Counted from the first letter of the stretch, positions 1 through 25,863 are shown. The stretch: 27,862 nucleotides of DNA from a virus (IMGVR_UViG_3300047322_000155:1-27862); one strand, 5' to 3'. The notes: generated by a model from the sequence alone, not told the origin. Numbers and translations are program-made.

Positions 1-482
1 ACTGCGGCGGGAATGGGCAAAAACGCTGGCATGCCGTTATCCGCGAAGCCAAAGAGCGTGCTCGCGCGATCTGCAGCAAGCGGCAGTGTTCCATCTATCG
101 TGTATTCTGTGACGGGGTATCGCACCGCGCGACCCTCTGCAGCGCCGCGGTCCTGCAAAGCCTGCCAGATACGATCAAAGTCGGCGTTGACGGTCTGCGC
201 CAGCAAGTCGCCATTGTCCTGATAGTCGGTGTCTCGCTCGAGCGCGACGGACCGATACAAAATGATCTTGCTGCCCTGCGCAGGCGGCGATATGAACTGG
301 ACAGATCCGCCGGTTGGGCTCCCAACCCCATTGATTGAATATTGGCCGCCAAGCGACTGCGTCGCACCGTTTTGCAGCACGACCAGATCGTCGCTTTCAA
401 GAATGGCGAACGGGAACGGAAACAGCGTGGTGATTCCGTTGCCTTGCGAGGAAATGATCGGATCTTGAACGGGGACTGTCAC
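1..482 (-). CDS. Tail fibre/spike protein, N-terminal part (cut by window edge)
   Basis: The minus-strand frame opens at a GTG at 482 and stays open to base 1, giving 160 residues without a stop. A Shine-Dalgarno GAGAGG at 490-495 lies 7 bases ahead of the GTG and decides the start. The protein begins MTVPVQDPIISSQGNGITTL and continues with FPFPFAILESDDLVV, LQNGATQSLGGQYSIN and a later DTDYQDNGDLLAQTVNADFDRIWQALQ segment. This is the usual layout of podovirus fibre N-termini: a small beta domain that docks on the tail, then an alpha-helical NADFDRIW-type segment. It follows the large terminase in the same direction. The receptor-binding part lies outside the window, so specificity cannot be judged. 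The fibre call rests on pattern recognition; the reading frame itself is clear. Confidence 0.85.
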   Translation of the reverse strand, partial: MTVPVQDPIISSQGNGITTLFPFPFAILESDDLVVLQNGATQSLGGQYSINGVGSPTGGSVQFISPPAQGSKIILYRSVALERDTDYQDNGDLLAQTVNADFDRIWQALQDRGAAEGRAVRYPVTEYTIDGTLPLAADRASTLFGFADNGMPAFLPIPAA

Positions 483-519: not shown

Positions 520-2154
520 CTACATTTCGAGCGTCACTTCGTGCACGCCCGTCGATGGACGCCAATCGTGCGACTGATCACCTGTCGGATTCCCGACCAA
601 TTTCCCGATGCGAACCGGCGTTTCGAGGATCGCCGACGCGCCAGAGTCTATGAAGTCGTCTGGCTGCGTCTTGATGATCGGATTGAATTGCTGCATCTGG
701 TCCCACACAGGACCGTCCAGAACGTCAACGTGCGCCCACAGGATCCCTGACCGAAGCGGCCCCTCAAGGCCAGCTAGAATCTTTTCGTTCTTGTTGACGG
801 TGGCTGTGCGATCGATCACGCCGCACTGCAGGCGCCGTTGGCTGATTGCCTTGCGCAATAGCTGCGGCGCGAACGTGCCGACGCCGTTCGTTTCCACGTA
901 GATTTGCGGTATTGAATACCGCTCGATCAGATCGCAAATCTGCATGACCTGACCGCCTTCTATCTTTGCGTTATCGTGCGCGAAAACAGCAAACTCTCCA
1001 AGCATGGCCTGCGCGACGTGCCAGTAGTAGTTGCCGGCCGCATCATCAAGAATCAGGGAAACGACCGAATCGTCACCGCCAGCCTTGCCGGTGGCGCAGT
1101 CCCAGTAGGCGCGCGCGCTTACGATGCGCGCGGCGCCGAGCATCATGCGGGCTTCTCGGTTTGCTCGCTCCACAACCGGGTGCACTTCGTACGGCCGCAG
1201 CTTTTCCGGATCAAGGCGCACTTCGCCGATAGGCTTGGCGTGGAGTTGATACTGGCTATCCCATTCGTTAATCGTGCGCGTCTCTCGCCGGCGCTTTTCG
1301 AGCTCATCGGCATCGAATCGCTCAGGCCACGCACACCCGGCATAGAAGTCGATCAGGCAGTCAGGAGATTGAGCAAACCAGACGCGATTGCCTTCCTCGA
1401 CGAAGTAGTCGATACCCTCCCGAAGCAGCCGGGCAGACTTCCCAATGCCGGAAAAGACGCAGTCCGGACGGAACGGGATGTCGTATCGCTCAGCCTTCGC
1501 AGCCTCGATGCGGTGCTCGTGCGCGAACATTTTTAGCGTGAGGCAGTCCGCGCCGAGCTTCTCTATCTCGTCGTACAGCGAATCGTGGGTGTGCGGCGTG
1601 CCGATGTAGAGCTTACGGCCGCCGGGGACGAGAATGTGCGTCTGCTCGCCAAGGCGATAGCGAAGCTTCTCCCGCGCCTCTGGCGTCTGGATGTTGCGCG
1701 GGACTTCGACGTCGTCGTTCTGACACTCATCGGCGCGCGCGCTGGTCACGTTCGACAGAATGCCCTTCGCGTACATGCTAGCGTTTCGATGGTCGGCGGC
1801 ACCGATTACCCACCACTGCTCCACCGTGCCCTGCCCAGGCGGCAGCATGCCAGCCGTGAGCGGGTGCTTGCGGATGACATTCTGTGTGTCGCGACTGGTC
1901 TTGTAGGCGGTGCCGTCCGACTCTGACTGGTGCAGAATCCGGTAATTTCCGTCTTCGTAATAACGCCACGCGTTATAGATGGCGAGTAGCGTCGACTTGC
2001 CGAATCCGCGAAAGCAGCGAAGCACCGCGAGCGGGCCGCGGTTCTCCATCCAGTGGCATGCAACGATGTGAACTTCCGGGACCGTCCAGTGCATGCGATC
2101 GGCCCAAAGTAGGAAAAACGCGAGGAACGATATCTTACGATTCACCGGCGGCAC
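520..2154 (-). CDS. Terminase large subunit (DNA packaging ATPase/nuclease)
   Basis: This is the motor that pumps DNA into the prohead and cuts the concatemer. The 544-residue length fits the T7 gp19-like branch. The N-terminal ATPase shows a Walker A motif CFRGFGKS at residues 47-54 and an ADECQNDDVEVP stretch near 141-152 in the Walker B position. The C-terminal RNase H-like nuclease shows YWDCATG (Asp352), IYVETNG (Glu421) and DDFIDSGA (Asp503), which fit the acidic metal-binding set. The listed start is a GTG at 2154, overlapping the small-subunit gene by 20 bases; a second GTG at 2142 would remove four residues. Neither has a strong ribosome site, so the exact start is uncertain. One copy of the 18-bp late-block repeat lies in the C-terminal coding part at 584-601. 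Confidence 0.95.
   Translation of the reverse strand: MPPVNRKISFLAFFLLWADRMHWTVPEVHIVACHWMENRGPLAVLRCFRGFGKSTLLAIYNAWRYYEDGNYRILHQSESDGTAYKTSRDTQNVIRKHPLTAGMLPPGQGTVEQWWVIGAADHRNASMYAKGILSNVTSARADECQNDDVEVPRNIQTPEAREKLRYRLGEQTHILVPGGRKLYIGTPHTHDSLYDEIEKLGADCLTLKMFAHEHRIEAAKAERYDIPFRPDCVFSGIGKSARLLREGIDYFVEEGNRVWFAQSPDCLIDFYAGCAWPERFDADELEKRRRETRTINEWDSQYQLHAKPIGEVRLDPEKLRPYEVHPVVERANREARMMLGAARIVSARAYWDCATGKAGGDDSVVSLILDDAAGNYYWHVAQAMLGEFAVFAHDNAKIEGGQVMQICDLIERYSIPQIYVETNGVGTFAPQLLRKAISQRRLQCGVIDRTATVNKNEKILAGLEGPLRSGILWAHVDVLDGPVWDQMQQFNPIIKTQPDDFIDSGASAILETPVRIGKLVGNPTGDQSHDWRPSTGVHEVTLEM
584..601 (-). promoter_or_regulatory. 18-bp late-block dyad, copy C (inside terminase, before tail fibre)
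   Basis: The minus strand from 601 reads TTGGTCGGGAATCCGACA, differing from copies A and B at one central base. Both GTCGG/CCGAC arms are kept. It lies in the C-terminal coding part of the large terminase, 101 bases before the tail fibre GTG, in the same orientation as the other copies. Being coding, chance is a greater concern here. Confidence 0.5.
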
Positions 2155-13811: not shown

Positions 13812-14702
13812 TCAGAACTGGTAGTCGATCGAGACGACCTTGTTTTCCTGGATTCGGCCTGCGCCGTACGACTCCTGGATGTAGATCTGCGTCGCATTCT
13901 TCTTGTCGCGCCGCGGGCCGATGTCGACGACTCGGTTCATACCGGTGCCGAACTGGATCGCCGACTTCGTGTAAGCGACCGTGGTCTTCACGGTGCTCAC
14001 CGTCTTCAGCGCTTCGTACGGAATCCAGTTGAAGCCGAGCCACTTGCCCGACAGCTTGCCGTCCTGAAGCATCTGGACCGCCATGAAGTCGGCTGACGTC
14101 AGCGTCGTGTCGCTCAGAATGTCCTCGAGCATTTCGGCGTCGTACAACATGTACAGTTCTTCGCCGTTCTGCTCATCGGCCTCAGCCTTGCGGAACAGCT
14201 TTTTCGCCGTGATCAGCTTGGCCTTGGTCATGCCGGTTCCGCCGTCGACGATCTTTTGGCTCGACGGCAGCGCGACTGTGCCGTAAGGCGTAGCTTCAGC
14301 AGTGCGCGTGATCGATGCGGCGAGCGCGGCGCTGTAGATCACAGCATCCTTCGCGCGGTTCATCGCGGCCACACCGTTTTGCGTATAGGTGCCGCCCGGG
14401 TTTGCCTTGAGCTTCGGCACGTCGAACGTGTCGACGGGCGTCGACCAGTCCCAGTCGCCCATCATGATCACGCGCGTGTCGTTCGCGTTGTCCGACCATT
14501 CGGTGTCGCCGAGACGGCTGGTAACCTGATTGGCCTGGGTCGCGGCGACGTTGTTCGCGGTGAACGAGGTGCCGGTTACGCCACCGACGTCGGTAACGGT
14601 GGATTGAAGTCGCGACTCTTTCTGCTGCGCGACCATCATGTACGTGTCCGCAAACTGCTGGACAAATGCGGCGGTGATGCTGTCGTTGACTGCCGTGTTC
14701 AT
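13812..14702 (-). CDS. Major capsid protein
   Basis: The protein is 296 residues from the ATG at 14702, which has GGGAG seven bases upstream. The same frame stays open far upstream, but that part crosses a terminator and the scaffold gene, so the long form is rejected. The start is MNTAVNDSITAAFVQQFADT. The body has WSDNANDTRVIMMGDWDWST, GVAAMNRAKDAVIYSAALAA and KNATQIYIQESYGAGRIQEN, a pattern I associate with HK97-fold capsid proteins of this podovirus group. Position after the scaffold and size support the call. It has its own upstream region (14703-14944) with a terminator and an 18-bp dyad, so it is probably transcribed separately and strongly. Confidence 0.88.
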   Translation of the reverse strand: MNTAVNDSITAAFVQQFADTYMMVAQQKESRLQSTVTDVGGVTGTSFTANNVAATQANQVTSRLGDTEWSDNANDTRVIMMGDWDWSTPVDTFDVPKLKANPGGTYTQNGVAAMNRAKDAVIYSAALAASITRTAEATPYGTVALPSSQKIVDGGTGMTKAKLITAKKLFRKAEADEQNGEELYMLYDAEMLEDILSDTTLTSADFMAVQMLQDGKLSGKWLGFNWIPYEALKTVSTVKTTVAYTKSAIQFGTGMNRVVDIGPRRDKKNATQIYIQESYGAGRIQENKVVSIDYQF

Positions 14703-14864
14703 GGAATGGCTCCCAAAAGGTTCGATGTGTTCTTGTCGCCTTCCAGGGTGTCCGTTACCGGGCCTGTAATACGGCATCACGTCGGCGAACGCGATGCATC
14801 GGGCTTGTCGGGTGTCCGCACGCCACTGCGGGCCGAATGAGCACGATGTTCTTGCAGGTGATGT

Positions 14865-14882
14865 GTCGGAATCCCGACCAAG
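14865..14882 (-). promoter_or_regulatory. 18-bp late-block dyad, copy B (before capsid gene)
   Basis: The minus strand reads TTGGTCGGGATTCCGACA, with arms GTCGG and CCGAC around GATT. It is identical over 18 bases to the copy at 18801-18818. It starts seven bases past the end of the scaffold terminator and lies 162 bases before the capsid ATG. A terminator followed at once by this element fits a promoter or an activator site for the next unit. Confidence 0.65.
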
Positions 14883-14888
14883 TACGGA

Positions 14889-14920
14889 CGAAAAAAAGCC
14901 CCGTGGGGAACACGGGGCTA
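14889..14920 (-). terminator. Intrinsic terminator after the scaffold gene
   Basis: On the minus strand AGCCCCGTG (14919-14911) pairs perfectly with CACGGGGCT (14905-14897) across a short loop, and a run of seven T follows. This is the strongest terminator in the window. It separates scaffold from capsid transcription. Confidence 0.92.
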
Positions 14921-14944
14921 AAGCACTGCTGCGAGGAGACTCAG

Positions 14945-15865
14945 TTATGCGATCGGCGCATTGCCGTATTTGCGCGCGTAGTAAGCGTCTACCTTGGCGC
15001 GCGTCGCCTTGTGGTCGGGATGCTTCGGATTCGTGTTCGCCTCGGAAATGAGAAGCTTCTGAATGTCGCCCTCGCTCGCGAAGCCTGTCGAGGCGCCGCC
15101 GCTGACAGGAACGTCCTCGCCAAACTCTGGCCCGATCGCGGCCATGAGCTTGATGAATGTCGGGTTGTTCGCGAGGCCAGCCTTTTCCAGATCGTCGAAC
15201 GACATGCCTGCGGCTTTGGCGATCGAGTCGCCCGCGCGATAAGCAAGCTGAACATTCTTCGTGTAGGTGCTGTCGTCGGCCCATGCCTTGCGTAGATCAG
15301 CGGTCGCCATTTCCGTGTTGAACGCAACGCCTCCCGCGACCAGTTGCGGCACTAGCTCGAAATAGCGCGACATCACGCCGTCGAACTGCTTCTGCGACAG
15401 ACCGAGGCCGTGCATATCCGAGCGGAACTGCTTGAACATGTCGTCGTTGTTCAGGTCACCCATCGCGTCTTTCAGCGTATCGGGCACCGCAACGGCATAT
15501 TCCTCGGGCGCCTTCGGTGCAGCGCCACCGTCGCCGAATCGCTTCGACAGTTCGCCGTAGCCGCCGGCGAGCTTCTGCGCGGACGCAGCGACATCGATAG
15601 CGCCATCAGCACCCGCGACGCGGTACTTCTCGGGCAACCAGTCGAAGTTGGCACCCGTCGCCGCCGGCTCAGCCGGAGTGCCACCACCAGCGGCTAATGC
15701 AGAACCGCTTGCTGCCGCTCCGCCTGCAGAAGCCGCAGCATCCGACCCTGCGCCGCCCGCACCACCGGCGGGCGCGGCGACGCCACCACCACCGCCGCCA
15801 CCGCTAGCCCCACCATCGCCGCCAGCTTCATCCATGAGCGCATACCGCCTCCAGAGCCATTTCAT
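14945..15865 (-). CDS. Scaffolding protein
   Basis: The 306-residue protein starts MKWLWRRYALMDEAGGDGGA at 15865, with GAGG nine bases ahead. An alternative ATG at 15835 (MDEAGG) would remove ten residues and has GGAGG at a longer distance. Residues 13-70 are an extreme Gly/Ala/Ser tract with a run of seven glycines. Next comes FDWLPEKYRVAGADGAIDVA (DWLP-K-R--G typical of podovirus scaffolds), AQKLAGGYGELSKRFGD, APEEYAVAVPDTLKDAMGD and a helical C-terminal half. Scaffolds guide prohead assembly and leave or stay inside the shell. Position between the connector genes and the capsid gene fits. The low-complexity N-terminus is longer than I would expect. Confidence 0.88.
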   Translation of the reverse strand: MKWLWRRYALMDEAGGDGGASGGGGGGGVAAPAGGAGGAGSDAAASAGGAAASGSALAAGGGTPAEPAATGANFDWLPEKYRVAGADGAIDVAASAQKLAGGYGELSKRFGDGGAAPKAPEEYAVAVPDTLKDAMGDLNNDDMFKQFRSDMHGLGLSQKQFDGVMSRYFELVPQLVAGGVAFNTEMATADLRKAWADDSTYTKNVQLAYRAGDSIAKAAGMSFDDLEKAGLANNPTFIKLMAAIGPEFGEDVPVSGGASTGFASEGDIQKLLISEANTNPKHPDHKATRAKVDAYYARKYGNAPIA

Positions 15866-15895
15866 TTTTTGTGTCCTCGCTGCTTCGTTGGAAAA

Positions 15896-16102
15896 TCAGT
15901 ACGAGGTGCCCGCCGACCACGTGCCGGCGACGTTCTCGTACAGCTTGCGCGCGACCACGTCGATTGCCAGATCGCCAGGCGCGCCGATCTCGGCCGCGGG
16001 CTGACCGATCACGGACGGGATCGAAACCGTCTTCGCGAAACGGGTGTCAGGCGTTGGGTTGGCGGTCCAGCCCGAACCGCCGAGTGTCGAAGTGCCAGTC
16101 AT
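15896..16102 (-). CDS. Small head-region protein with GxPGD-type motif
   Basis: This is a 68-residue protein. The ATG at 16102 has GGAG seven bases upstream, and the gene starts two bases past the previous stop. The C-terminal half, IGAPGDLAIDVVARKLYENV followed by AGTWSAGTSY, matches a short beta motif often seen in phage fibres and head fibres after collagen-like segments (G-x-x-GD-x-x-D-x-x-x-x-x-LY-x-x-x-x-G-W). Here it stands nearly alone on a short protein between the Bbp19-like gene and the scaffold. It may be a small virion surface protein or a minor head component. Function is not established. Confidence 0.75.
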   Translation of the reverse strand: MTGTSTLGGSGWTANPTPDTRFAKTVSIPSVIGQPAAEIGAPGDLAIDVVARKLYENVAGTWSAGTSY

Positions 16103-16104
16103 GG

Positions 16105-16356
16105 TCAATCTCCTTCGGGTTGCTCTGCGCCTGAGGCGCGGTTGATTTGAGACAGAATGTGCTCGACGACCGCGCGACGGCCTGAGCGGAAATCTGTTTC
16201 GCGCTGCGCTTCGAGACCGCCGCGAACGTATGTCGATCCGGCGAATCGGTTGACCAGATCCTCAAGCACGAGCTCGCCAGCCTTCGACGCGAAAAGCAGC
16301 GCATATTCGGCAGGAGTGGCGGCCGGCGGCTGAGCGCCCGGAATATTTGCCTTCAT
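16105..16356 (-). CDS. Bbp19-like small phage protein
   Basis: The 83-residue protein has an ATG overlapping the portal stop as ATGA. The pattern LLFASKAGELVLEDLVNRFA, then AGSTYVRGG, and DFRSGRRAVVEHILSQINRA looks like the small Bbp19-type proteins encoded after portal genes in BPP-1-like and other podoviruses. In these a conserved F-x-x-x-x-G-x-x-VL-x-DL segment and a GRR-x-V-x-x-IL-x-x-I helix recur. The family has no agreed function; the constant place between portal and scaffold suggests a part in head assembly. The family call is from memory of the pattern. Confidence 0.75.
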   Translation of the reverse strand: MKANIPGAQPPAATPAEYALLFASKAGELVLEDLVNRFAGSTYVRGGLEAQRETDFRSGRRAVVEHILSQINRASGAEQPEGD

Positions 16357-17975
16357 TGCTGCGCCACCATGCGGTTAGCCGCGGCCGAACCGGCGGACTT
16401 CAACACGTCGCCAGTCACATCCATGCCGAGTTGCTGTTGTTGCGCTTGCGCGGCTGCGGCCTGCTTCTTCTGCCGGAACTCGACGACCTTGTCGGAGGGG
16501 CGGATAATTGCATCCGGCACGCCGAGACCCTTCCCGGTGTGCCGTACAGCCTCATCGGTATCGACGTTGTCGAGCACGCTAGGATCGACTTGCGCCATCA
16601 CGGACACATCGCCCATAAAGCGCTCGATCGCAGTGACTTCCTCGAGCTTCTGCGCGCGCGCGAGCGGTGACTGGTACTGAACGGTGAAGTTGCGACCACC
16701 CAGCGAGTCGGGAGGCGGCGCAAAGACGCCGGCTCGGAACGCCAGGCCAAAGCAGCGGGTGATCAGCGGTTGCAGGTATTCGGCCTGCAGCCGACCGTAG
16801 ATCGGCCCGAGCAATTGGCGAATCAGATCGACGCGCACGTGCACTTCCGTCGCGGTCATGGCTGGGCCGTCCTGCGGCTGAAGCTGATCAGCCATCAGTG
16901 TGCGGCGGATATTGCCCTGCAGCTTTTCTTTCTCGGTGAATGCGACATTGAAGTTCGCCGCGGGCTGCAGCGGCTTCATGCTGTCGACGGAGTTAGCCAC
17001 AATGATTTTGCGCGGGCCCACCTTGACCGTGCGCGGATTAAGTACGCCATCGTCTTCCGCGATCCACATGCCAGACACGGCCATGTCGAGATTCGCGTAT
17101 TCCAGCTTGACGATGTCGTTGAGCGTGCGTATGTCGGGCAAGGCGTCAAGCACCGGGCCGACGCCGTAGCAGCTATTCGGGATCTTCTTCCAGCGTGCGA
17201 CGACCACGGGCATTTCGTGATAGCCCGACTCGCGCACCGTTGCCTTCACATCGCAGCAGAACGTGACGGACGCTATCGGCAGGTTCTTGGAGCGCAAAGC
17301 ACCAACGGCGGACACGTCGCGTGGATAGATGCAATGGCAGAATTCGAATTGCCGATCCGGTGTCGTCTCGACCACATCTCGGATCTGCGCCGGCAGGGTA
17401 TCGCCGCGCTTGCTGAACTCACGGACGGCCTGTTCGGCGGTGAGCTTATACGGGCGAAACACAGTGTCGATTCGACCGCCGGGACGCGACGACGCCACGT
17501 AGACGCCAGCCATCGGCCAATGCTCGAAGTAGAGCCCGCCGTTGTCGCGGTCCTCGTCGATGTACAGAGCGAACCAGCCCGCACCCATACAGTCGTCAAT
17601 GCAATCAGACGCCTCGGCATCAAAGTTCGCATTGTGGATATTCTCCCACAGCAGTTCGCTTGCGTCGTCAAGCCAGCGCGTTCCCTCGTCGTCTTCGCCG
17701 TTCACGCGCATCTTGAACCACAGCGAGTTAGCCGGCGTCATGCCTGACATGATCGACGCATTCAGCACGCGCTTCGCGTCGCTTGCCGTCGAGTCGAAAA
17801 TCAGCGAAACCGCGCGGGCGATCTCGTTCGCGTCCATCACCGGCCCTTGCAGGCCTGATGCGCGAATGGGATCAGTCAGCATGAAGCAGTCGCGCCACAC
17901 CAGTTCGTGAACGGTGCGCGCGGACTTCAATGCTTCAAGCCGCTTGTACAGGGAATCGCCGAGGCTGTAGGCCAT
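16353..17975 (-). CDS. Portal protein (head-to-tail connector)
   Basis: At 540 residues it has the size of T7 gp8-type connectors. The N-terminal helix is DSLYKRLEALKSARTVHELV, followed by WRDCFMLTDPIRASG and IFDSTASDAKRVLNASIMSG, then MTPANSLWFKM. The D(S/D)TA-x-x-A-x-x-x-L-A--L-SG-TPP-S-WF pattern is the hallmark of this family. A central YGVGPVLDALPDIRTLND is also typical. A Gln/Ala-rich basic tail (RQKKQAAAAQAQQQQLG) ends the protein. Twelve copies would form the DNA channel at one capsid vertex. The ATG at 17975 lies just past the previous gene's stop. Confidence 0.95.
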   Translation of the reverse strand: MAYSLGDSLYKRLEALKSARTVHELVWRDCFMLTDPIRASGLQGPVMDANEIARAVSLIFDSTASDAKRVLNASIMSGMTPANSLWFKMRVNGEDDEGTRWLDDASELLWENIHNANFDAEASDCIDDCMGAGWFALYIDEDRDNGGLYFEHWPMAGVYVASSRPGGRIDTVFRPYKLTAEQAVREFSKRGDTLPAQIRDVVETTPDRQFEFCHCIYPRDVSAVGALRSKNLPIASVTFCCDVKATVRESGYHEMPVVVARWKKIPNSCYGVGPVLDALPDIRTLNDIVKLEYANLDMAVSGMWIAEDDGVLNPRTVKVGPRKIIVANSVDSMKPLQPAANFNVAFTEKEKLQGNIRRTLMADQLQPQDGPAMTATEVHVRVDLIRQLLGPIYGRLQAEYLQPLITRCFGLAFRAGVFAPPPDSLGGRNFTVQYQSPLARAQKLEEVTAIERFMGDVSVMAQVDPSVLDNVDTDEAVRHTGKGLGVPDAIIRPSDKVVEFRQKKQAAAAQAQQQQLGMDVTGDVLKSAGSAAANRMVAQQ

Positions 17976-17978
17976 GAG

Positions 17979-18248
17979 TTATTGCCCGAGGGACGTCTTG
18001 CCCGTTGCCATCACCGAACTGCTGGAGGTTGCGCCAGTCGACGAACCAGCGCCAGTCGCGAGCAGGCTTGACGCAGCGCGCTTCTTCTTGTCCGCTGCGG
18101 CCTGCGCATTGGCCTGCTGCGCTGCCTGAGCGTCGGCAGCATCAGCGGCGCTCGCGGCAGTCGTGGTCGTCGTCGGCGTCGCCGCCGGCTTATCCTTCGT
18201 CCACAGGCCGCCCGGATCGAGGAACTTCGTAAAGCTGAAATCACCCAT
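17979..18248 (-). CDS. Small Ala/Thr-rich protein before portal
   Basis: The protein is 89 residues from the ATG at 18248, with GAGG six bases upstream; an adjacent ATG three bases earlier is too close to the ribosome site. It starts MGDFSFTKFLDPGGLWTKDK, then becomes low-complexity: a run of threonines, Ala/Gln-rich AADAQAAQQANAQAAADKKK and a Ser/Thr/Gly tail. I do not recognise a family with certainty, though a short protein with an N-terminal FLDPGG-like motif before the portal is a familiar sight in podoviruses. It could be a head assembly helper or a minor virion protein. Tightly spaced with its neighbours. Confidence 0.7.
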   Translation of the reverse strand: MGDFSFTKFLDPGGLWTKDKPAATPTTTTTAASAADAADAQAAQQANAQAAADKKKRAASSLLATGAGSSTGATSSSSVMATGKTSLGQ

Positions 18249-18256
18249 CATTGGCC

Positions 18257-18754
18257 TCAGCGGAAGTTTTGCGGCAGCGGCTTCTGAATGGTCGGCACGA
18301 GCCAACCATCGGAGCACAGCTTGGGAGCGGCCAGCGCGGCGGGATCGACTTCGCTGGAATGGGGGAGTTCGCGCGCGGCGGCCGGCGATCCATCTGCGGC
18401 AGGCTTGGCCTCACGCTGCGCGCGGCGTGCGGCTACAGCGGCCTGCGCTTGCTCGCGCGCGGCATCTTGAGAAGGCAGCTCGCCAGCTGCGCGGTAGACC
18501 GTTTCAAGCTCTTTGCGCTTGCCGGCGATAAGCTCGTCGCGCTTCGTCGGCTCGGCGGCGTTCCATTCCTCGAGTGACAAACCGCTCGTCTCGAACGCGC
18601 CTTCGACAATCTCGTTGATCGACACATCGCGGCCAGCAATCTGCATCACCGACATGGGATCGCCGATTCCTGCCAGCACGACCATCGCCGCCGCCGTGCG
18701 CTCAGCCGGCGTGCTCGGCATGCCTGGCTGCTGCGTCTTGTATTCTCTGCCCAT
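18257..18754 (-). CDS. Unknown protein, first gene of the head operon
   Basis: The protein is 165 residues from the ATG at 18754, which has a strong GGAGG eight bases upstream; an ATG 15 bases earlier has no ribosome site and would include the GGAGG as coding. The N-terminal half has EYKTQQPGMPSTPAERTAAA and VSINEIVEGAFETSGLSLEE, probably helical. The second half is Ala/Arg/Glu-rich, and the tail is DGWLVPTIQKPLPQNFR. I recognise no family. It is the first gene after the 18-bp dyad at 18801-18818 and precedes the portal, so it probably belongs to late head assembly. No membrane segment or enzyme motif. Confidence 0.7.
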   Translation of the reverse strand: MGREYKTQQPGMPSTPAERTAAAMVVLAGIGDPMSVMQIAGRDVSINEIVEGAFETSGLSLEEWNAAEPTKRDELIAGKRKELETVYRAAGELPSQDAAREQAQAAVAARRAQREAKPAADGSPAAARELPHSSEVDPAALAAPKLCSDGWLVPTIQKPLPQNFR

Positions 18755-18800
18755 CGCTCGCACCTCCATCCATGGTGCGGCGAGTATTTAGCTCTGGGGC

Positions 18801-18818
18801 TGTCGGAATCCCGACCAA
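18801..18818 (-). promoter_or_regulatory. 18-bp late-block dyad, copy A (before head operon)
   Basis: The minus strand reads TTGGTCGGGATTCCGACA, identical to copy B. It fills most of the short gap between the last early-type small gene and the first head gene, 46 bases before that gene's ATG. A TAAATACT stretch lies 13 bases downstream, which could serve as a -10, but the other copies lack it. Confidence 0.62.
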
Positions 18819-19073: not shown

Positions 19074-19343
19074 TCACATACGGCGATACTCCGCCGCGCT
19101 CGGCGGTGGCGTCCACGTGGGGGCGCTCTCAATGGCTTTGCCAGTCACCTGCATCCAGAATCTCAGCAGCATCGCGCCGCTCGAGTGCCGCGGCTCTGCG
19201 CCGAGGTTGTGATACCCGAGCAGCGTCGTGCGCGGGATCTGGGTGAAATACGAAATCTGCGCAACGGTGTAACCCGCCCCTCGCACCTCGTCGAGAATGC
19301 GAGACCAGTTGACCAGCGGTGCGGGGGCGAGTTGTTTAAGCAT
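19074..19343 (-). CDS. Small helix-turn-helix protein
   Basis: The protein is 89 residues from the ATG at 19343, two bases past the preceding TAA. WSRILDEVRGAGYTVAQISY followed by FTQIPRTTLLGYHNLG fits a Cro/XRE-like helix-turn-helix: the ..TVAQISYFTQIPRTTLLGY.. part reads as helices 2 and 3. The rest, ML-RFWMQVTGKAIESAPTW and a Pro-rich tail, has no known motif. It may be a regulator of late genes, since it lies just before the late block and no other late activator is seen. That link is an inference from position. Confidence 0.65.
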   Translation of the reverse strand: MLKQLAPAPLVNWSRILDEVRGAGYTVAQISYFTQIPRTTLLGYHNLGAEPRHSSGAMLLRFWMQVTGKAIESAPTWTPPPSAAEYRRM

Positions 19344-19347
19344 AGGC

Positions 19348-19575
19348 TTAGGCTTCTTCCTTGACGCGGACGCCGTTCCAGTAATTGAAGGCAGCGATCT
19401 GTTTTCCATGGCGATCGACAATGACGAGAAGCTGACCGTCGATTGAGAATCGCGCGCCCTTAATCACGACCGTGCCTTCTGCGGTCGTATTGACGATGAA
19501 CTCGGCGTCCTTCTCATCCGCTGCCGACCGAGCGGGCGGATAAATCCCAATCCCATTTCCGATTCCCGAGGCCAT
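19348..19575 (-). CDS. Unknown small protein
   Basis: The protein is 75 residues; its ATG overlaps the previous stop as TGATG. After a Gly-rich start (MASGIGNGIGIYPPARSA) it looks like a small beta sheet: EFIVNTTAEGTVVIKGARFS, then IDGQLLVIVDRHGKQIAAFN and YWNGVRVKEEA. There are no cysteines, no membrane segment and no enzyme motif. I do not recognise a family. Translational coupling suggests it is made together with the low-complexity protein before it. Confidence 0.65.
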   Translation of the reverse strand: MASGIGNGIGIYPPARSAADEKDAEFIVNTTAEGTVVIKGARFSIDGQLLVIVDRHGKQIAAFNYWNGVRVKEEA

Positions 19576-20701: not shown

Positions 20702-20960
20702 TTCGCATATCCCATTCGTGATCGCCGCTCGCGATGAACGCGGCCAGCGATCTGCGGTTGAACTTCACCAGCGCCTCAACGCGATACGTGCCATCGGCAT
20801 TGAAGTGGCGCGCCGTGGCGAATCCTCGGTACTGAGGCGGCAGATCGACATCCACCAGCACAAGCTCGTCGCAGTCCGGATCGTCATCGGCGCGGCGCAC
20901 CCGGCATACGACACATTCAAACGACTGCGCGCCCTCGAAAGACTGAAACGGCAGTTCCAT
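20688..20960 (-). CDS. Unknown protein with CxxC-like pair
   Basis: The protein is 90 residues from the ATG at 20960. It begins MELPFQSFEGAQSFECVVCR; the ECVVC pair plus a later acidic DDDPDCDELVLVDV and PPQYRGFATARHFNADGTYR suggest a small mixed alpha/beta fold, perhaps metal binding. It lies 14 bases after the YbcO-type nuclease gene. No family is recognised. The ribosome site is weak, so the start could differ slightly. Confidence 0.6.
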   Translation of the reverse strand: MELPFQSFEGAQSFECVVCRVRRADDDPDCDELVLVDVDLPPQYRGFATARHFNADGTYRVEALVKFNRRSLAAFIASGDHEWDMRNDEL

Positions 20961-22378: not shown

Positions 22379-23329
22379 TCAGAAGTCCGCAGGCAGGAGG
22401 CCATCGCCGAGCGTCGCGACAACCTGGTTGAACCAACGCTCGCCGCTCGTCTTTGCGTGGCGCAAGATGTGATCGATCCACGGACCACGCCCCGCGACCT
22501 TCGCAATGCGCAGCAGGTACATCGGCGTCGGCTCGTCTTTGTGGCGCGCAACGCCTAGCTCTGCGCCCTTCGCATTGATGCCCGCGTCGCCTTCCCACCA
22601 ACTGCCCGCTACCGGAACACCAGCGACAGCTTGCGCGCCGCCCAGAGCCTTCTCGTTGCGAACCCAGTTACGCCACGTCGCATCCCAATCGGTCTTCAGC
22701 CCATCCTTGCCGGCCTTCGCAATCCAGTAGTCCTTGAACGACGCCGCGACCTTGCGAATGTGCTCAGGCGTCCACGTCGGTTGCTCTGCAGCAGCCCAGA
22801 CTCCCAGCGCTTTTGTCAGAACCCAGTCTTTCGGCAAGCGGGTACCGCGCGCAGCCGACGGCGGAGCCGTTGGCGAAGAAGAAATGACGGTTCCTGATGG
22901 TTCATTACGTTTACTGACGTTTCCGTGGTCCGTTTTCGGACCTCTTACCTGCCGTTTTTGGACCTCTTTGCCGCCGTTTTCGGACCTGTTATCCGGTGAA
23001 ATTGGACCGGGTCCGTTTTCGGACGTGGTCCGTTTTTGGGCCTCTTTAACAGGTCCGTTTTTTCCGACGATGATCCGGTACACAACGACTTGCCCGGTGC
23101 TGCCGCAGCGTTTTCCACTGTCCTCAATGAATCCCCATTCCTTCAGGCGCTTGATATTCACCTTGACGGTTTTCGGGTCCTGAGAAGTGGCTTCGGCGAT
23201 ATACGCGATCGACGGGAACGCAAGGAACTCCTTGCCATCCGCGCAATTGGCGATGACGGTGAGCACGAATTTCGCGCTGGAGTTAGGTAGGGACTGCTTG
23301 AGAGCCCATGTGATCGCCTCAACGCTCAC
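22379..23329 (-). CDS. Replication initiation/organiser protein (lambda O-like layout)
   Basis: The protein is 316 residues from a GTG at 23329 that overlaps the previous stop as GTGA. Residues 1-90 are a winged helix: ITWALKQSLPNSSAKFVLTV, FLAFPSIAYIAEATSQDPKT and VKVNIKRLKEWGFIEDSGK. Residues about 87-135 form a polar linker with repeated E-V/A-QKR-x and ENG units, encoded by six iteron-like repeats. The C-terminal half contains WIAKAGKDGLKTDWDATWRN and WVRNE, a segment shared by many phage replication organisers and DnaT-like proteins. It probably binds the origin in its own gene and recruits the host helicase, since no helicase gene is visible here. Confidence 0.85.
   Translation of the reverse strand: MSVEAITWALKQSLPNSSAKFVLTVIANCADGKEFLAFPSIAYIAEATSQDPKTVKVNIKRLKEWGFIEDSGKRCGSTGQVVVYRIIVGKNGPVKEAQKRTTSENGPGPISPDNRSENGGKEVQKRQVRGPKTDHGNVSKRNEPSGTVISSSPTAPPSAARGTRLPKDWVLTKALGVWAAAEQPTWTPEHIRKVAASFKDYWIAKAGKDGLKTDWDATWRNWVRNEKALGGAQAVAGVPVAGSWWEGDAGINAKGAELGVARHKDEPTPMYLLRIAKVAGRGPWIDHILRHAKTSGERWFNQVVATLGDGLLPADF
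22927..23068 (-). repeat. Six iteron-like repeats, putative replication origin
   Basis: On the plus strand, copies of the consensus GGTCCGTTTTCGGACCTCTT have their CCGTTTT core at 22930, 22952, 22974, 23013, 23030 and 23055. The first three are spaced exactly 22 bases, about two helical turns. The best copy contains the dyad GGTCCG-TTTT-CGGACC. They lie in the linker-coding part of the replication gene, as the lambda origin lies in gene O. Confidence 0.75.
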
Positions 23330-24495: not shown

Positions 24496-24720
24496 TTAAG
24501 CAGCGGCCTGCTCTGCGGGGTACAGATCAGGGCGCAATTCATGACGGCTAACGCCAGTGATGCGCTCGATCTTCAGGACGTGGTTCGAAGGGACGTGGCC
24601 GGTGCGGCACATCTTCTGAACGTTCTGCGGGGTGCAATCCAACTGCCGGGCAAGCGCCGATTGGCTGCCGGCCAGTTCGCACGCCCGCTCGATGGGGGAG
24701 AGTTGCGCGGAGATTTCCAT
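24496..24720 (-). CDS. Cro/YdaS-like transcription regulator
   Basis: The 74-residue protein reads MEISAQLSPIERACELAGSQ, SALARQLDCTPQNVQKMCRT, then GHVPSNHVLKIERITGVSRH and ELRPDLYP. This is a single helix-turn-helix of the YdaS/Cro type; the ...SALARQLDCTPQNVQKMCRTG... segment is the DNA-reading part and ITG-SRHELRPD-YP is the usual ending. It is divergent from the S24 repressor, with a good promoter and operator half-sites between them. Its job is probably that of Cro: to turn down the repressor gene and its own operon early in lytic growth. Confidence 0.9.
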   Translation of the reverse strand: MEISAQLSPIERACELAGSQSALARQLDCTPQNVQKMCRTGHVPSNHVLKIERITGVSRHELRPDLYPAEQAAA

Positions 24721-24746
24721 GACAGGGCACTTTCCGGTTGATGGTC

Positions 24747-24811
24747 TACAACCAGAATCTACAACTTACAACCGGATATTTCAACCAATATTTGCAGTGC
24801 CAACTACAACC
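24747..24811. promoter_or_regulatory. Operator half-sites between cro-like gene and repressor
   Basis: TACAAC(C) occurs at 24747, 24760, 24767 and 24805, with the 24760 and 24767 copies in tandem at 7-base spacing; a GGTTGAT at 24736 makes an imperfect dyad with the first. The sites cover the -10 and spacer of the cro promoter. The same heptamer recurs at 25801-25863. Confidence 0.7.
24756..24784 (-). promoter_or_regulatory. Leftward early promoter (PR-like) for the cro operon
   Basis: On the minus strand, TTGAAA (24784-24779) is followed after exactly 17 bases by TAGATT (24761-24756). GTTGTA half-sites lie in the spacer and over the -10. The predicted leader is about 30 bases. This is the best promoter match in the window. 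Confidence 0.7.
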
Positions 24812-24823
24812 GATTTTTGTACC

Positions 24824-25546
24824 ATGCCGCCAATGAGCCAAACCCATATCGGCGTGCGAATCCGTGAGTGCCGGGAAAAGGTCGACTACAGTCAGTCGGA
24901 TCTCGCCCGCGCCCTTGGCATCAAGCCGCAAGCCGTGCAGAAGTGGGAAGCCGGCCAGTCAGCCCCGAGAAACGAACGACTCCAACAGATTGCCGACGCG
25001 CTTAGCACATCTGTAAGGGAGTTGATTCGTGGAACAGAGTTAGAAGGGATTGCCGAATCCGGCAGCATAAAAGATGCAGGCAGCAGTAAAGTTTTCCCCC
25101 TAAGGGGCGCCCAGCGTGGCGCACCCAAAGACAAACGTGGCCTCGTGCCCCTACTTTCGTGGGAGCAGGCTGCTAATTGGGGGCAAACCTTGAACTCGAA
25201 CAATCTCGAAGAAGCCGAGGACTGGCTCCGGTGTCCGTTTAACCACGGAACTGAAGCTTTCATTCTGGAAGTTGCGGGGGAAAGCAACTTCGATCCTACC
25301 GGGCCAAAGTCCTACGCGCCCGGCGAATTCATCGCAGTAGACCCATCCCGAGAACCGGTTAATCGAAGCATGGTCGTCGTCCGAGTCGACCATGAGGACC
25401 GCGTCACGTTTAAGCAGCTGCTGATGGACGAAGGTGGAACGCGACTCCTGAAGGCGCTCAATCCTACGTGGCCCGGCCGCCCTGCCCCGCTTCCTGATGG
25501 CTCGCGGATCATCGGCGTTGTGATAGGGAAATGGGTTCCAGAGTGA
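24824..25546 (+). CDS. CI-like phage repressor with S24 (LexA-type) peptidase domain
   Basis: The protein is 240 residues from the ATG at 24824; an ATG nine bases later is equally possible, and neither has a ribosome site, so the message may be almost leaderless. Upstream extension into the cro gene is rejected. Residues 8-67 are an XRE helix-turn-helix: VRIRECREKVDYSQSDLARA, LGIKPQAVQKWEAGQSAPRN. Residues about 145-238 form the S24 fold, with GES (Ser154), PGEFIAVDP and VTFKQ (Lys197) as the expected Ser-Lys pair. Ala85-Gly86 in the linker is a candidate self-cleavage site. It should keep lysogeny and be inactivated through RecA after DNA damage. Confidence 0.93.
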   Translation: MPPMSQTHIGVRIRECREKVDYSQSDLARALGIKPQAVQKWEAGQSAPRNERLQQIADALSTSVRELIRGTELEGIAESGSIKDAGSSKVFPLRGAQRGAPKDKRGLVPLLSWEQAANWGQTLNSNNLEEAEDWLRCPFNHGTEAFILEVAGESNFDPTGPKSYAPGEFIAVDPSREPVNRSMVVVRVDHEDRVTFKQLLMDEGGTRLLKALNPTWPGRPAPLPDGSRIIGVVIGKWVPE

Positions 25547-25800: not shown

Positions 25801-25863
25801 TACAACTTTCACTTGCATTCGCAGGTTGTAGGTTGTAATTTGTGGTTGTAGACAAATACAACC
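25801..25863. promoter_or_regulatory. Right operator cluster, five GGTTGTA-type half-sites
   Basis: TACAAC lies at 25801, GGTTGTA at 25824, 25831 and 25844, and TACAACC at 25857. The last two form the perfect dyad GGTTGTAgacaaaTACAACC. The 25824/25831 pair is a tandem at 7-base spacing, mirroring the left cluster. A rightward promoter is expected here (for example TTGCAT-17 bases-TAATTT at 25813-25841), but no pair is convincing. Confidence 0.72.

Follow-up and report, generated by a model that had tools for sequence, protein, structure and literature searches.

In bacteriophage Mu, the activators C and Mor act at promoters that lack a functional -35 element, to which they recruit the sigma70 RNA polymerase of the host. 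CII and Q of lambda are temperate-phage regulators that likewise act on host RNA polymerase; CII uses TTGC direct repeats, and Q, encoded just before the late operon, acts at one late promoter via antitermination. The C proteins of restriction-modification systems are small dimers that bind dyads and are able to activate transcription. Mu C recognizes a single dyad element that is present in four late promoters, and for Mor the dyad has its centre at -43.5 (PMC4287176). In the middle promoters of T4, a MotA box at about -30 replaces the -35 element next to an excellent -10, and AsiA is needed (PMC6755090). LUZ100, a temperate T7-like phage of Pseudomonas whose promoters have been mapped, has its own RNA polymerase and phage-specific promoters (PMC10134795).

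Here, we analyzed a viral record of 27,862 bases (the window, meaning the whole stretch of DNA). Its late genes follow the Mu-type layout, in which one dyad recurs before several late units and the promoters have a sigma70 -10 but lack a -35. We propose, with a probability of roughly three in four, that these are activator-dependent late promoters, three per genome, at which a dimer of an XRE-type helix-turn-helix (HTH) protein sits on the dyad and recruits sigma70 RNA polymerase. This proposal is based on sequence comparison.

A repeated dyad precedes three late units of a temperate podovirus

On the minus strand of the window, profile scans matched the large terminase, the T7-like tail tubular proteins, the portal, the capsid and internal virion proteins; in the right part, they matched replication genes together with a CI/LexA-type repressor. 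This gene content indicates a temperate podovirus whose virion module is T7-like (Table 1). Elsewhere in the window, tandem GGTCCGTTTTCGGACC-type repeats of ~22 bp (22924-23046) lie inside a replication-initiator-like gene and are possible origin iterons, and a 41-nt imperfect inverted repeat (24744-24784 and 25813-25853) flanks the repressor gene region.

Table 1 Features of the window discussed in the text, with positions counted from its first base.
Feature	Position	Strand	Basis
Dyad, late promoter 1 (portal/head operon); predicted -42 to -25	18801..18818	-	Repeat search, relatives, -10 phase
-10 hexamer AATACT, late promoter 1; predicted +1 near 18776	18783..18788	-	Sequence; phase from 51 sites
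Dyad, late promoter 2 (capsid)	14864..14881	-	Repeat search, relatives, -10 phase
-10 hexamer GAACAT, late promoter 2; predicted +1 near 14839	14846..14851	-	Sequence; phase from 51 sites
Dyad, late promoter 3 (tail fibre), in 3' end of terminase gene	583..600	-	Repeat search, relatives
-10 hexamer CACGAT, late promoter 3; predicted +1 near 558	565..570	-	Sequence; phase from 51 sites
Small HTH protein of XRE fold, candidate for the late activator; 115 aa if read from TTG, true start perhaps a later ATG	19074..19421	-	Profile searches, model
Portal / head-tail adaptor gene	16353..17975	-	phrog_332
Hairpin resembling an intrinsic terminator (GCCCCGTGTTCCCCACGGGGC, then a T run); ends the upstream unit, just before late promoter 2	14890..14917	-	Direct reading
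Structured RNA of the capsid leader; two covarying hairpins that share an architecture, and a third	14737..14834	-	Covariation, covariance model
Major capsid protein gene	13812..14702	-	phrog_3437
Large terminase gene	520..2154	-	phrog_38
5' part of the tail-fibre gene, with a GTG start at 482; continues beyond the window	1..482	-	Direct reading
CI/LexA-type repressor, likely lysogeny repressor	24632..25546	+	phrog_4

The 18-mer TTGGTCGGGATTCCGACA occurs in two exact copies (copies 1 and 2) and in a third with one mismatch (TTGGTCGGGAATCCGACA). In 100 dinucleotide-preserving shuffles searched with up to three mismatches, the mean was 0.02 matches, and none of the shuffles reached three copies. 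Copies 1 and 2 occupy gaps, before the portal operon and before the capsid gene, respectively. Copy 3 lies within the last codons of the large terminase gene (VGNPT..HDWRP), and the tail fibre starts ~100 bp further on. Chance or coding constraint as the origin of this copy was weighed against the relative L092 (G002) and rejected: the terminase of L092 stops before the third site, which is thus intergenic and yet present as L092's own variant dyad. The third copy therefore looks selected as a site. In these respects the original prediction was borne out, as it had placed every copy in minus orientation ahead of the head operon, the capsid gene and the tail fibre, had located two of them in non-coding gaps and had regarded their identity as unlikely by chance. 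Its coordinates were right for the first copy and off by one for the second and third.

The sites recur at matching places in related phages

Relatives were collected in two scans of viral contigs, one with the exact 18-mer (11 stretches) and one for capsid relatives (32 loci), and in a scan with the capsid profile across GTDB, with one genome for each species, which returned 42 loci, mostly prophages. Hosts in the latter include Burkholderia, Caballeronia, Herbaspirillum, Variovorax, Pseudomonas, Serratia, Stenotrophomonas, Gilliamella, Acinetobacter and others; among named phages, only Yersinia YeP4-6 are close.

We found the dyad GTCGGGAWWCCGAC at matching places in relatives from Burkholderia, Herbaspirillum, Pseudomonas, Serratia, Yersinia and others. 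In most relatives it lies ~150-200 bp before the capsid gene, with a second copy 3.5-6 kb upstream, before the portal unit, and further sites are present downstream of the capsid (tail fibre/lysis). The search of relatives with distances to genes, suggested together with the original prediction, returned the same places as in the window. Matching capsid and portal dyads occur in dozens of relatives from several proteobacterial genera, and nearly all related viral records have exactly three sites, all on the late strand, while YeP4 has five; shared descent inflates these and all other counts given here. Strong comparative evidence points to the 18-mer as a docking site in promoters that would switch on the virion genes across a widespread temperate phage family.

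Some members (L031, L019 and L048) carry only half a dyad, and in the Acinetobacter relatives the HTH family is present and no recognisable dyad was found; both observations count against the proposal. Across the Acinetobacter and Alcaligenes phages L060, L062, L063, L072, L100 and L101, most of which have the HTH family, neither a recognisable dyad nor the capsid-leader RNA described below was found, and late control may differ in these phages. The Orbaceae/Gilliamella prophages L059, L067 and L070 each have two HTH paralogues, and L067 and L070 share a different dyad, GTGCrAAAwCGCAC, before the capsid.

A phased -10 element accompanies the dyad

The sequence next to the 14-bp dyad, on its downstream side, was compared across 51 non-redundant sites. 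Conservation in this flank was limited to A at position 15 (92%) and T at position 19 (86%), counted from the dyad, corresponding to -11A and -7T of the sigma70 -10 element. The pattern nAnnnT stood at one offset in 44 of the 51 sites; across 5000 shuffled sets, no offset reached more than 10. The 51 sites contain neither a -35 nor an extended -10. From the fixed -10 phase it follows that the dyad spans about -39 to -26, with its centre at about -32.5, i.e. at the location of a -35. The hexamers of the window begin 14 nt past the 14-bp dyad core. The original prediction had seen no shared -10 or -35. Its second half holds, whereas a degenerate sigma70 -10 is in fact common to all copies; this box is too degenerate to be visible from a single genome.

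In 17 whole host genomes (4.4-9.1 Mb), the pattern dyad + N14 + A + N3 + T had 44 matches, all of them on the contig bearing the HTH prophage and within ~25 kb of each other; the reversed-pattern control had 0 matches. Two of these genomes, G048 and G051, have variant sites only and hence no match to the promoter pattern. A general host regulon is not supported, since the sites cluster with the HTH prophage.

A small HTH protein is the candidate activator

Using phmmer and jackhmmer, we identified a homologue of the HTH protein in practically all loci that extend far enough upstream; it is encoded on the late strand and precedes the first late promoter. Its stop codon lies at most ~12 bp from the first late dyad in more than half of the rows having both, and in several loci the TAG stop is made by the dyad flank (ATAG|TCGGG); some Pseudomonas phages have several hundred bp between the HTH gene and the first site, which is a point against the pairing. 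Each of the 17 host genomes contains exactly one copy of the family. The HTH profile had no match in HTVC010P, whose capsid is related. Because the HTH gene ends an operon of lytic direction, a role as late regulator fits.

The protein of the window had no Pfam or NCBIfam family match. Its AlphaFold model has a mean pLDDT of 83, and over 95 in the HTH domain. The closest solved folds are restriction-modification controller proteins, CylR2, SinR and P22 c2 (XRE-type), with Z of ~7-8 over ~65 residues, values that can also reflect a common arrangement. According to the model, the protein has an XRE/Cro-CI-type fold; the PDB matches denote a shared fold and are no evidence of function.

We suggest the following sequence of events. 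The HTH protein would be the product of the final gene in the early/middle operon, and would bind the dyad at about -39 to -26 as a dimer, replacing the missing -35. Bound there, presumably in contact with sigma region 4, it would recruit host sigma70 RNA polymerase to the weak -10 (nAnnnT) in fixed phase. Transcription would begin at the predicted start sites, and all three late units (portal operon, capsid and tail fibre) would be turned on together.

Sites and recognition helix change together

Additional support for this pairing comes from dyad variants. These are the same within one phage, for example GTCAG..CTGAC in L021 (three copies in its record), GCCGG..CCGGC in L061 and GGCGG..CCGCC in L071; the variant of the Thiobacillus locus L051 reads TCCCGGAyTCGGGA (TCCCGGA..TCGGGA). 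The two copies of a phage differ on average at 0.35 of 11 positions versus 2.22 when permuted (23 phages, p<=5e-5), and a recognition-helix Gly (motif TLLG) is present in 36 of 36 rows with the canonical capsid site versus 3 of 17 with a changed site (Fisher 3e-10; 2e-5 once relatives were collapsed by hand), with relatedness only partly removed in both tests. Among close relatives, the sites and the helix residue are both altered in L021, L019 and L048, and neither is altered in L022, which is at a similar distance. Such joint change is as predicted for a trans-acting protein that reads these sites. The phage's own small HTH protein, encoded just upstream, is the likely partner of the dyad GTCGGGATTCCGAC.

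A late-activator site was one of the functions named in the original prediction, and it is strongly supported by what the comparison shows, namely conserved sites, a -10 in fixed phase, the absence of a -35, the gene order and the joint change of sites and helix residue.

The same promoter occurs without the HTH gene

We found the exact promoter in at least 120 stretches of IMG/VR. The HTH protein is encoded in 11 of 24 further IMG/VR records with the promoter, and most of the others have a single site. As about half of these sampled records and two of the seven Pseudomonas genomes having the exact site are without the HTH gene, the dyad is not exclusive to this protein. Where they could be judged, the HTH-less settings are lambda-like Pseudomonas prophages. 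In one setting, the promoter is located 46-50 nt before a conserved 61-aa protein, often near the integrase. In the other, it lies between tail genes resembling lambda I and J (gpI-/gpJ-like), with a terminator within ~75 nt.

The 61-aa protein was always found behind the dyad promoter, in lambda-like Pseudomonas elements or genomes, several of the genomes being without HTH. A search that started from the protein alone identified it in 6 of 399 Pseudomonas genomes, and all six have the dyad and the -10 at the same distance; no HTH was found in three of the six, those within the 199 genomes searched for HTH. The protein had no Pfam or PHROGs match. This orphan (M..FAEAI.AIAPV..RKSRNRF.RECDRWTNRL..) was recorded in L107, L111, L131, L155, L158, L175, L283 and L286-L292. 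Records of the tail-gene setting are L140, L148, L166, L168 and L182, in which the intrinsic terminator suggests a possible small RNA.

Either the genes behind these promoters listen for the activator of another phage, or a second activator reads the same site. The HTH-less promoters are the main evidence against an exclusive pairing with the HTH protein. They are also the reason to consider that a different phage or host protein binds the dyad and that the adjacent HTH gene is merely syntenic. We regard this as rather unlikely: site variants follow the recognition-helix residue, the sites form no general host regulon but cluster with the HTH prophage in the 17 host genomes, and of the regulators found, only the HTH protein occurs in practically every member examined, a comparison made for the HTH family alone. 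A separate and doubtful, though conceivable, idea is that the late regulon of the podoviruses is tapped by unrelated elements, i.e. lambda-like prophages with a single perfect promoter and without the activator. If true, these prophages would sense the lytic programme of a competing phage via its activator, a form of prophage eavesdropping.

Repressor, RNA and polymerase readings of the dyad

The dyad could alternatively be the operator of a repressor, either the HTH protein or another, which blocks otherwise active late promoters in lysogeny. It overlaps the -35 position, where repressors frequently bind, the XRE fold is common to repressors, and 39 of 39 aligned HTH members match PHROG 16553, whose label is transcriptional repressor. 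However, a promoter without -35, without extended -10 and with a two-base -10 is expected to be near silent unaided. Since the promoters described here are of this build, with only -11A and -7T conserved in the -10, activation is favoured over repression. Moreover, a separate CI/LexA-type repressor is encoded, and the HTH gene is situated at the end of an operon of lytic direction. Taken together, repression is an unlikely function of the dyad.

The original prediction had also raised an RNA hairpin (GUCGG-GAUU-CCGAC) for processing or antitermination; in Pseudomonas, it would have a GAAA tetraloop, and a role in stability was considered as well. The inverted repeat does show compensatory changes (in L021, L061 and L071), but these are equally expected for the site of a dimer. 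In L048 (Caballeronia) and the contig L019, the right half (CAAGATTCCGACC) and the -10 phase are kept at both promoters and the left arm is gone, so that an RNA stem is impossible there. Furthermore, the predicted start lies downstream of the dyad, and the dyad of the capsid promoter comes after the terminator-like hairpin. We consider the hairpin very improbable. Least probable of all is that the sites are T7-style promoters for a phage single-subunit RNA polymerase, the non-host polymerase of the original prediction, which would suit the T7-like virion module but is at odds with a sigma70-like -10 in fixed phase at every site type; PF00940 had no match in 11 records, in a search whose control was also without a match.

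A structured RNA in the capsid leader

Between the predicted start of the capsid transcript, which it follows directly, and the capsid ATG, we found a strongly covarying structured RNA of ~98 nt that is present in the capsid leaders of ~35 related loci. Its two like hairpins consist of an outer stem, an asymmetric internal loop C/AYMC and an inner CCG-CGG stem; a GUGGC loop caps the first of them, and the middle hairpin has a conserved GCC loop. In 27 sequences, 96.8% of cells pair, compared to less than 50% in a partner-sliding control, and changes on both sides occur at 10 of 14 pairs; the structure was drawn by us on the same 27 sequences, which favours it, although the contrast is still large. 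RNAalifold returned no structure for the untrimmed leader alignment and a structure for the anchor-trimmed one. With a covariance model, the RNA was detected once per genome in 12 of 13 genomes, each time in the capsid leader and including loci outside the model set; the model did not find it in the Acinetobacter relatives.

No Rfam family matched the leader RNA above the gathering score, and the RNA points to a new family of capsid-leader RNAs. Translational control of the capsid gene or mRNA stability are reasonable guesses at its role. Apart from this RNA, the Serratia prophage L055 contains a match to the Rfam sRNA isrK (RF01394) at 20757-20833, ~10 kb downstream of its capsid gene.

Comparison with known systems

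We found no earlier description of the motif, or of the late promoters of this family, in open-access text. LUZ100 shares temperate features and T7-like organisation with the phage of the window, but was rejected as the same system because it encodes its own RNA polymerase (PMC10134795). The position of the lambda Q gene, just before the late operon, is like that of the HTH gene; neither CII nor Q families were among the profile matches. Restriction-modification C proteins of the C.Esp1396I type are the nearest solved folds to the HTH model, yet 13-16% identity and Z of ~8 denote a shared fold only, and their genetic setting and operator are unlike those described here. The middle promoters of T4 also have a phage box near -30 in place of the -35. 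They differ in their excellent -10, in contrast to the weak -10 found here (only -11A and -7T), and here the box is a dyad with an XRE-fold candidate.

The combination of a -35-replacing dyad with an XRE-fold protein thus seems to be undescribed. Our results offer a proposed late-control wiring for widespread temperate podoviruses with T7-like virions in which no phage RNA polymerase was detected, for which we found no earlier proposal. They also define a putative activator-operator pair that can be tested, and whose specificity would have been switched several times in nature (GTCGG, GTCAG, GCCGG, GGCGG, TCCCGGA). This natural variant set may be of use for reading a recognition code and as a source of orthogonal parts for synthetic biology.

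The likeness to Mu C and Mor lies in a small phage HTH activator, which in our case is a candidate, and in one dyad before several late units. Differences concern the centre of the dyad, -43.5 for Mor versus about -32.5 here, and the sequence of the repeat. A Pfam scan of 39 HTH members (E<=0.1) had no Mor family match among the matches listed (25 of 32 families). Overall, the best reading is that Mu C is the nearest functional analogue, with an unrelated protein and a different geometry in the phages described here.
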